The position numbers were made by a program, and so were the translations under genes. The notes beneath the pieces are model-generated. The model did not search any database. It was not told where the DNA came from and saw only the letters and a list, made by a program, of their open reading frames with translations. Of a DNA stretch of 64,000 nucleotides, positions 46,785 to 49,010 are shown piece after piece (positions within the stretch are counted from its first letter, which is position 1; each line of letters opens with the position of its first letter). This DNA comes from Xylophilus ampelinus. Lineage in GTDB: Bacteria; Pseudomonadota; Gammaproteobacteria; Burkholderiales; Burkholderiaceae_C. Where the stretch lies: assembly GCF_901875635.1 (NCBI RefSeq), contig NZ_CABFMN010000084.1, positions 124,001 to 188,000 of the forward strand, in the 5' to 3' direction.

Positions 46785-49010
46785 TCAGGCCTTGAGGTAC
46801 TCGGCCTTGGTGCCCAGCCAGCGGTCCACGTGCTGGCGCGCGAGCTCGGAGTGCCGGTCGAGCAGGCGCGGTGCGAGTTCGCGCGCCCAGTCGAGCAGCA
46901 GCAGGTCGGTGCTGAGGTCGGCGAAGCGCAGCAGCGGCGCGCCCGACTGCCGCGCGCCGAGGAACTCGCCCGGTCCGCGGATCTCCAGGTCGCGCCGCGC
47001 GATCTCGAAGCCGTCGCCCGTCTCCACCATCGCCTTGAGCCGCGCGCGCGCCGCCTCGCCCACGCGGCCGCTGTCGCCGGTGGCGTAGAGGAGCACGCAG
47101 GCGGAGGCCGCCGCCCCGCGCCCCACGCGCCCGCGCAGCTGGTGCAGCTGCGAAAGCCCGAAGCGCTCGGCATGCTCGATCACCATGAGCGAGGCATTGG
47201 GCACGTCGACGCCGACCTCGATGACCGTGGTGCTGACCAGCACGTGCAGCGTGCCGGCGGTGAAGTCGGCCATCACCGTTTGCTTCTCGGCGGTGGGCAT
47301 GCGCGAATGCAGCAGGCCGACACGAACCGCCTCACCCAGGTGCTCCGCCAGCTCGTCGCGCGTGGCCGTCGCATTGCGCAGGTCGACCGCCTCGCTCTCC
47401 TCGATGAGCGGGCAGACCCAGTAGACCTGCCGCCCCTGTTCGAGCTGCCCCCGGATGCGCTCGATCACCTCGTCGCGCCGATGCTCGGCCACCAGCTTGG
47501 TGACGACCGGCGTGCGGCCGGGCGGCAGCTCGTCCAGGGTGGAGACATCCAGGTCGGCGTAGTAGCTCATGGCCAGCGTGCGCGGGATCGGCGTGGCGCT
47601 CATCATGAGCAGGTGGGGTTCGGCCTGAATCAATCCCTCCCCCGCTGGGGAAGGGCTGGGGTGGGGGCCGCGCGGCAGTGGCTCGGCGCCGCCGCTTGCC
47701 AAGGCCGCATGCCCCTCACCCTGCCTCTGCCCAGAGGGGAGAGGAGCCACCCCCGCCTTGCCCCGCAGCGCGAGCCTCTGCGCCACGCCGAAGCGATGCT
47801 GCTCGTCCACGATCGCGAGCGCGAGCCGCTTGAAGCGCACCTTCTCCGAGATCACGGCATGCGTGCCGACGACCAGCGCGGCCTCGCCGCTCTCGACGAT
47901 CGCCTCCATCGCCTCGCGCTCCTTCTTCTTCTGGCTGCCGGTGAGCCAGGCGACGCGCAGGCCGCGCGCGGCCAGCAGGGGATCGAGCCAGCCGACCAGC
48001 TTGCCGAAGTGCTGCGAGGCGAGGATTTCGGTCGGCGCCATCAGCGCGCACTGGAAGCCCGCATCGATGCAGCGCGCCGCGGCGAGCGCCGCCACCAGCG
48101 TCTTGCCCGAGCCGACGTCGCCCTGCAGCAGCCGGTGCATGGGCTGCGTGCGCGCGAGGTCGAGGGCGATCTCGCGGTCGGCGCGCTGCTGGGCGCCCGT
48201 GGGCTGAAAGGGCAGCACGCCCAGCAACTGCGCGTGCAGCGAGCCGGCGCCGACCGCCGCCTGCAGCGCCGGTGCCCGCTGGGCCGCCCGCTCGCGCCGC
48301 GCCTGGAGCTGCGACAGCTGCTGCGCCAACAGTTCCTCGGCCTTGAGCCGCTGCCAGGCCGGGTGGCTGTGGTCCTCGAGGGTGGCGACCGCCACGTCGG
48401 GCGCCGGGTAGTGCAAAAAAGATAGCGCCTCGCGCAGACCCCATGCGCCTTCCGGCATCATCGGGTTCGGAACGATGGCGTGCAGCGGCGCCCGTGCCAG
48501 GCCGGCCTGCACGGCGCGTCGCAGCACGGGTTGCGCGAGACCGGCGATGGTCGAGTAGATCGGCGTCAGCGCCAGCGGCAGTGGCGTGCCGGCCGCCTTC
48601 ACCGTGGGATGCATGATGGTCCGCCCGACGAATCCCCCTTTGATCTCGCCCCGCACGCGCATCTTCGCGCCGGGCGCGAGCTGCTTCTGCTGCGAGGGGT
48701 AGAAGTTGAAGAAGCGCAACTGCACCGTGTCGCTGCCATCGTCCAGCGTGGCAATGAGCTGCCGGCGCGGGCGGAACACGACCTCGCAGTCGGTGACGAC
48801 GCCTTCGACCTGCACCGTGTCGCCGTCGCGCGTGTCGACCAGGCGCACCACGCGCGTCTCGTCCTCGTAGCGCATGGGCAGGTAGAGCGCGAAGTCGATG
48901 TCGCGCACCAGCCCCAGCTTCTTGAGCGCGCGCTGCACCTGGCTCTCGCCGCTGCCGGGCGCACGCGGCGGCGCGTCGGCGGCAGGGGCGGCGGCGGATT
49001 TGGCGGGCAT
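46785..49010 (-). CDS. recG: ATP-dependent DNA helicase RecG with repeat-derived insertion
   Basis: 741 residues (E. coli RecG 693). It remodels stalled forks and Holliday junctions. The N-terminal wedge/OB domain is intact; Walker A GDVGSGKT lies near residue 300, DEQHRFGV is motif II, SATPIPRTLAMSYY motif III, and motifs V/VI are VSTTVIEVGVDVPN and QLRGRVGRG. Between motif II (after RLALRGKA) and motif III the protein has about 45 residues where other RecG proteins have about 10. The extra stretch (residues about 418-462) is Pro/Gly-rich and is encoded by an inverted REP doublet read in frame. All catalytic motifs remain, so the gene is probably functional. Confidence 0.95.
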   Translation of the reverse strand: MPAKSAAAPAADAPPRAPGSGESQVQRALKKLGLVRDIDFALYLPMRYEDETRVVRLVDTRDGDTVQVEGVVTDCEVVFRPRRQLIATLDDGSDTVQLRFFNFYPSQQKQLAPGAKMRVRGEIKGGFVGRTIMHPTVKAAGTPLPLALTPIYSTIAGLAQPVLRRAVQAGLARAPLHAIVPNPMMPEGAWGLREALSFLHYPAPDVAVATLEDHSHPAWQRLKAEELLAQQLSQLQARRERAAQRAPALQAAVGAGSLHAQLLGVLPFQPTGAQQRADREIALDLARTQPMHRLLQGDVGSGKTLVAALAAARCIDAGFQCALMAPTEILASQHFGKLVGWLDPLLAARGLRVAWLTGSQKKKEREAMEAIVESGEAALVVGTHAVISEKVRFKRLALAIVDEQHRFGVAQRLALRGKAGVAPLPSGQRQGEGHAALASGGAEPLPRGPHPSPSPAGEGLIQAEPHLLMMSATPIPRTLAMSYYADLDVSTLDELPPGRTPVVTKLVAEHRRDEVIERIRGQLEQGRQVYWVCPLIEESEAVDLRNATATRDELAEHLGEAVRVGLLHSRMPTAEKQTVMADFTAGTLHVLVSTTVIEVGVDVPNASLMVIEHAERFGLSQLHQLRGRVGRGAAASACVLLYATGDSGRVGEAARARLKAMVETGDGFEIARRDLEIRGPGEFLGARQSGAPLLRFADLSTDLLLLDWARELAPRLLDRHSELARQHVDRWLGTKAEYLKA
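47634..47744. repeat. REP-like doublet inside recG
   Basis: CCCTCCCCCGCTGGGGAAGG then GCTGGGGTGGGGG (47634-47668) faces CCCCTCACCCTGCCTCTGCC then CAGAGGGGAGAGG (47712-47744). The two arms are inverted relatives, arranged as in the intergenic doublet at 7486-7591. Length and frame keep recG open. Confidence 0.82.

Follow-up and report, generated by a model that had tools for sequence, protein, structure and literature searches.

An in-frame REP-like palindromic doublet in recG of a Xenophilus-like bacterium, at a RecG loop that repeatedly carries insertions

Introduction

Can a dispersed palindromic repeat become part of a conserved DNA repair protein and leave it usable? The question is raised by a recG gene in a 64,000-nucleotide stretch of bacterial DNA (hereafter, the window), in which an earlier note, made from the sequence, had read a long segment between helicase motifs II and III as a REP-like doublet inserted in frame, in the manner of the palindromic elements of Rickettsia. 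In that note the insert was set apart as lying in a host of another phylum and in an "essential-class" protein; Xenophilus (the genus nearest to the window, see below) and Rickettsia belong to the same phylum, and RecG is not essential in E. coli.

Precedents for repeats of this sort within genes exist. According to the main text of Di Nocera et al. 2013 (PMC3733652), REPs of the GTAG and CGTC super-families, dimers among them, occur in coding genes ("REP-tagged" ORFs), many of which are repair genes (uvrA, recBCD, polA, dnaE2); two Xanthomonas species carry different REPs near the same site in recB, flexible linkers or loops being one explanation that the authors put forward. The presence of in-frame REPs in repair genes thus has a published precedent, which the earlier note does not mention. 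The case of the recG loop goes beyond that main text, from which recG, Variovorax, Acidovorax and Burkholderia are absent. The open-access literature that we searched yielded no report of palindromic repeats in the RecG loop, and PMC6006769 names RecG in a reference only. The Rickettsia elements (RPEs) are, as summarized in part of a review (PMC10969869), in-frame protein-coding palindromes found in unrelated genes.

An in-frame doublet between helicase motifs II and III

The features of the window on which the argument draws are the following; repeats of the kind found in the recG insert are referred to as class A, and three further classes (B, C and D) are introduced below.

46785..48983, minus strand: recG, ATP-dependent DNA helicase (NCBIfam NF008166 plus open frame; 5' end approximate, the open frame extending to 49583)
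47796..47807, minus strand: helicase motif II, DEQH, residues 393-396 (invariant columns in a 40-row alignment)
47631..47750, minus strand: inserted loop, codons of residues 412-451, predicted disordered (net +120 nt relative to genome G001; pLDDT <50)
47634..47668, plus strand: REP-like arm 1 of the doublet (aligns over 34 nt to the element at 7485; fits the pattern with 1 mismatch)
47712..47744, minus strand: REP-like arm 2, inverted (its reverse complement aligns to the element at 7485)
47592..47600, minus strand: helicase motif III, SAT, residues 462-464 (invariant columns 462-464 in the 40-row alignment)
7485..7591, plus strand: intergenic REP-like doublet, same class as the recG insert (class A; used with other Xenophilus copies to build the class A profile)

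In a profile search the product scores 1096.7 bits against the NCBIfam RecG model NF008166 (cut-off 864), and the SF2 motifs and the reading frame are intact; the DEQH and SAT columns bear out the earlier statement that the insert spares the helicase motifs. To measure the loop we use the span from DEQH (motif II) to IPRT, which lies just past motif III: this comes to 77 residues in the window RecG versus 37 in G001, G004, G009 and G011, so that the estimate of about 45 residues where relatives have about 10 was about right. Relative to G001, the nearest genome, the window gene shows a net gain of 120 nt (40 residues), and the two proteins are 98-99% identical outside the loop; G011, whose RecG is 97-98% identical to that of the window, likewise has the loop without the insert, so that both genomes carry empty alleles.

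The inserted DNA is itself recognizable. Both arms lie where they had been placed from the sequence, the second as the inverted partner of the first, and local alignment of the insert (47622-47760) with the region of the intergenic doublet (7478-7600) gives a score of 51, where 1000 dinucleotide shuffles reach at most 34 and 89 other windows of recG at most 19; the proposed kinship of the two doublets therefore holds. Against other full doublets the insert shows approximately 72-78% identity over more than 100 nt. Its predicted RNA fold reaches -86.3 kcal/mol (z -2.6), a value equaled by 2 of 200 shuffles. In an AlphaFold model of the window RecG, pLDDT is at least 70 in 561 of 732 residues and falls below 50 at residues 412-451, so that the insert, as the earlier note had asked of a structural model, is predicted to loop out as a disordered segment. 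We thus confirm an in-frame REP-like doublet insertion in the recG of the window.

A GC-rich loop might also grow by ordinary slippage and come to be REP-like in looks only. In favor of such growth, 36 of the 67 long loops in the survey described below carry no repeat class, and some contain simple repeats, such as a Gly-His run in L135; for the window, the excess of the alignment score over the shuffle maximum and the length of the match to full doublets refute it. We regard slippage as a highly improbable account overall, one that may stand for some of the long loops outside classes A-D.

We note in passing an AT-richer stretch (ATTTTGCTATCGAATTCATAGCTGCTTGCGC) at positions 46708-46740 of the window, just past the gene preceding recG, which may resemble a dispersed Comamonadaceae repeat.

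The repeat classes as dispersed elements

Class A has the traits of a REP/BIME element: it is a short GC-rich palindrome, it occurs in many copies (counted in relatives of the window), and its copies form inverted pairs. G001 contains 30 copies of the palindrome core and G007 contains 6, a backward control giving none, and eight further genomes have 2-21 copies each. It is mainly extragenic: among seven other doublet places in Xenophilus, three have no spanning open frame, and the eight frames spanning the other four have no Pfam match. Since none of these seven doublets lies in a recognizable gene, recG is the one gene in which class A is seen. Neither GTAG nor CTAC, CGTC or GACG occurs in 47600-47780 or 7470-7610, and because the tags are absent from these stretches we do not place the elements in the GTAG/CGTC super-families. 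The RecG loop is like the intragenic GTAG/CGTC REPs in having palindromes and dimers within genes, many of those published being repair genes (as the main text of PMC3733652 has it), and differs in the missing tags and in the presence of several repeat classes at one loop, across 27 genera. Short inverted palindromes in doublets and at high copy number also recall REP/BIME elements mobilized by RAYT (TnpA-REP) proteins. A possible difference, seen in relatives of the window, is that the Y1 transposase-type (Y1_Tnp) genes, present once each in 14 of the 15 Xenophilus genomes searched, have no copy of classes A-D within 1.5 kb at any of the 14 loci.

The profiles for classes A-D were built solely from copies outside recG. 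At E 1e-4 or better they match 24 of 234 unique loops (B 15, C 4, D 4, and A 1, the window); weaker matches occur in L117 (E 0.0055) and L227 (E 0.003). Classes B, C and D are likewise repeated within most of the hosts searched for them. For class B, with scoring limited to 40 candidates in any one genome, seven of eight genomes have 7-41 matches each and the remaining one has 6; class C gives 80, 80, 79, 29 and 1 matches per genome, both strands being counted; and class D gives 10 and 15 in two genomes and the recG copy only in G260 and G171. Classes B and D appear to be related, L116 having matches to both, so that there are at least three kinds of repeat. We observed that in G171 (L126) and G260 (L119) class D is present nowhere but in recG, as if a repeat lost from the rest of the genome had survived in this gene.

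Variation of the loop across relatives

The nearest named RecG relatives in alignment are those of X. aerolatus (P0003, 96%) and X. azovorans (P0012, 90%), as against approximately 78-80% for named Variovorax loci, so that Variovorax, named earlier as the group for comparison, is not the nearest; judged by RecG, the window is best called Xenophilus-like. Within Xenophilus the loop varies: spans are 37-46 residues in 12 of 15 genomes and 64 in G007 and G008, both with class B, and the class A insert of the window is present in none of the 15, the presence-or-absence comparison that the earlier note had proposed. The third exception, G002 (L003), has a 58-residue span with a CCGGTCCCCCCCC run, outside classes A-D.

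RecG was present in at least 296 of 299 genomes of the family searched. We read the loop in half of the 310 family genomes (155), with long loops overrepresented: the first batches consisted of genomes in which the window protein gave a match running through the loop, a choice that favors long ones, and a set of 60 was taken in score order from genomes with split RecG matches. In this latter set the span is exactly 38 in 42 genomes, 37-38 in 44, and 37-53 in all 60; the old loop common to the whole family, which the earlier note had weighed against a recent insertion, is not what is found.

A span of at least 50 residues occurs in 67 of the 155 genomes, and 31 of these 67, from 27 genera, carry a palindromic repeat of classes A-D in frame (A-like in 7, B in 16, C in 4 and D in 4); since long loops are overrepresented, 31/155 overstates the rate, for which 31/310 is the floor. 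The seven A-like loops, the window not among them, were assigned by pattern or by eye (L113, L124, L132, L148, L222, L228) or from a weak profile match (L227), and the other 36 long loops match none of the four classes. Inserted and short alleles are both present in 11 genera. The RecG motif II-III loop is thus a recurrent insertion site, a family-wide aspect to which the earlier note, partly supported overall, did not extend. It offers natural replicates, namely one conserved loop of a repair enzyme with several repeat inserts and with empty alleles in the same genus, in which one can ask whether dispersed repeats create protein segments and whether the inserts change RecG.

A further type of insert, PPEASPHPPEGG..SGLGRPGAG, was seen as peptide only, in the motif II-III loop of 16 of 121 RecG proteins (P0019, P0022-P0026, P0028, P0030, P0040, P0042-P0044, P0046, P0052, P0056 and P0060), two of which are named Variovorax.

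We favor, with a probability of roughly 0.8, the reading that a dispersed class A doublet inserted into recG of a Xenophilus lineage, and that the loop is a tolerant landing site for several classes of repeat. The doublet would have been copied into the codons that join the helix following motif II to the motif III strand, lengthening the gene by a multiple of three without bringing a stop into the frame used; from RecA-fold topology, this junction would lie at the edge of the fold, away from the ATP and DNA motifs. With frame and length kept and the position at the edge, we propose that RecG could thus have gained a floppy 40-residue loop and stayed usable. In the same way, class A-like, B, C and D repeats would have entered the loop in frame in many genera, protein-breaking insertions presumably being purged. 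We infer that transposition machinery moves the repeats, that the insert is neutral and that helicase activity is retained.

Shared descent versus repeated insertion

The loops could instead go back to one ancestral Comamonadaceae insertion, kept or lost by recombination with short alleles and with its core homogenized by gene conversion. Class B provides the material to weigh this. Across the 44 cross-genus pairs among ten largely intact class B inserts, mean identity is 93.4% in the insert, 84.0% in flanking recG and 70.7% at downstream third codon positions, with the insert exceeding the flank in 43 of the 44; in the single same-genus pair the values are 90 for the insert and 91 for the flank. 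Inserts more alike than their recG flanks across genera make passive descent unlikely. The flanks broadly group by genus regardless of insert state, and horizontal transfer of a recG segment together with class B was accordingly considered and found unsupported in the compared pairs. One exception is L125 (g141), whose downstream sequence is closer to that of L130 (g138; 91) than to that of the short allele in its genus (88), both L125 and L130 carrying class B.

This exception speaks for an ancestral insertion, as does the uniformity of the class B loops: all 15 share one orientation, 13 of 15 the same starting codon phase and 9 of 15 the same starting codon, and the phase bias holds despite each of the six frames being open in 24-28 of 28 copies outside recG. 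By eye, a similar 12-nt tail follows the insert in five related genera. The class D loops all begin in one phase, and class D is found in G171 and G260 in recG only. However, unrelated classes occupy the same loop, the class A insert of the window is absent from the 15 Xenophilus genomes read, class B loops L120 and L233 begin in another phase, spans are 37-38 in 44 of the 60 genomes with split matches, and gene conversion into one short insert across a dozen genera would be costly. We therefore consider a single ancestral insertion an unlikely account of the loop as a whole; it may hold for part of classes B and D, and some of the class B loops may go back to an older insertion that they have in common and whose copies stayed similar. 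A quick tree (approximately 235 columns, 164 rows) gives 36 long/short changes, and 14 changes for class B; we set these counts aside because poor resolution inflates them.

The position of the insertions raises another alternative, that the loop is a true target hot spot with sequence-directed insertion, or that the peptide is useful, for instance by altering the action of RecG at palindromes. Most class B loops begin at the same codon position, different classes share the one loop, and all 14 gene copies of class C keep to a single codon phase (see below), all of which would fit. On the other side, diversity at the three codon positions is 0.075, 0.125 and 0.154 among 13 recG copies of class B and 0.133, 0.175 and 0.200 among 30 copies elsewhere, parallel patterns that give no clear sign of selection on the peptide, and the frame in which class B is read differs in other genes. 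We identified no target motif. Taken together, we judge a directed target or a useful peptide improbable, slightly more so than the ancestral insertion.

The loop also stands out from the rest of the gene. In 150 near-complete recG genes (318,183 nt), matches to classes A-D at E 1e-3 number 19 in the loop (22,188 nt, 7%) and 2 elsewhere, an enrichment that the bias toward long loops makes an upper estimate. Of the two matches outside the loop, one is weak and lies in the recG of G137 (E 5.9e-5). The other is in the Xenophilus genome G004 (L015), where class B is found in frame at recG nt 299-369, in the N-terminal half, in a frame unlike that of most loop copies; in L297 (G180), a class C copy (E 6.8e-11) lies at nt 839-889 of the recG open frame, outside the loop or upstream of the true start.

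The same repeats in other genes

Beyond recG, classes B and C occur in frame at 18 gene sites, as read from the inserted proteins. The ten class C sites are in Tex (two), UvrA, MetH, HtpG, RsmE, a urea carboxylase-like protein, a metallo-beta-lactamase-fold protein, valyl-tRNA synthetase and a pyridine nucleotide oxidoreductase; the eight class B sites are in a CopA-like ATPase (two genera, counted once), salicylyl-CoA 5-hydroxylase, a YbbP-like permease, an acyl-CoA dehydrogenase, a CobB-like enzyme, a UvrA-like protein, an acyl-CoA synthetase-like protein and an ABC ATPase. The count omits L342, where a repeat lies upstream of a rubredoxin domain, and the frames spanning the repeats at L322, L345, L357, L339, L343, L347 and L349 have no Pfam family.

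When the highest-scoring places outside recG are taken in order of their similarity to the recG copy, intragenic ones make up at least 9 of 25 class B loci and at least 9 of 12 class C places, both counts being lower bounds. A sample of G128 taken in coordinate order (30 of 87 pattern matches, merged to 20 places) lowers the impression given by the top-scoring class C matches: 4 of its 20 places are in frame in recognizable genes (RecG, HtpG, ValS and the oxidoreductase).

The first arm of class C falls in the same codon phase in every one of its 14 gene copies, which represent 13 separate cases; in 3 of the 14 the second arm is in another phase. Over 28 copies the used frame is open in 21 and another frame in 26. 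The single phase suggests either that a filter acts on the protein or that the target dictates the phase. Class B, as mentioned, is read in other frames in other genes, among them those of the CopA-like ATPase and the acyl-CoA dehydrogenase.

The likeness to the Rickettsia elements proposed in the earlier note holds, then, for behavior: classes B and C lie in frame in unrelated genes (the 18 sites), class C reuses one codon phase, and the class A insert of the window, in frame in recG, is missing from its 15 nearest genomes. The differences are the host class and, for class C in G128, the 4 of 20 places inside recognizable genes, and the comparison is one of behavior and not of sequence. These sites suggest that protein-coding palindromes are common in this bacterial family, well outside Rickettsia. 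A bolder reading, which we offer tentatively and find somewhat doubtful, would have the Comamonadaceae carry protein-coding palindromes that repeatedly enter housekeeping genes, class C doing so in a preferred frame that encodes a harmless flexible peptide, so that the element would be selected for translatability, and the RecG loop being a family-wide parallel hot spot.

A second recurrent site was seen in a heavy-metal P-type ATPase, in which class B lies just before the GDGVND motif in two genera (L271 in G203 and L275 in G155).
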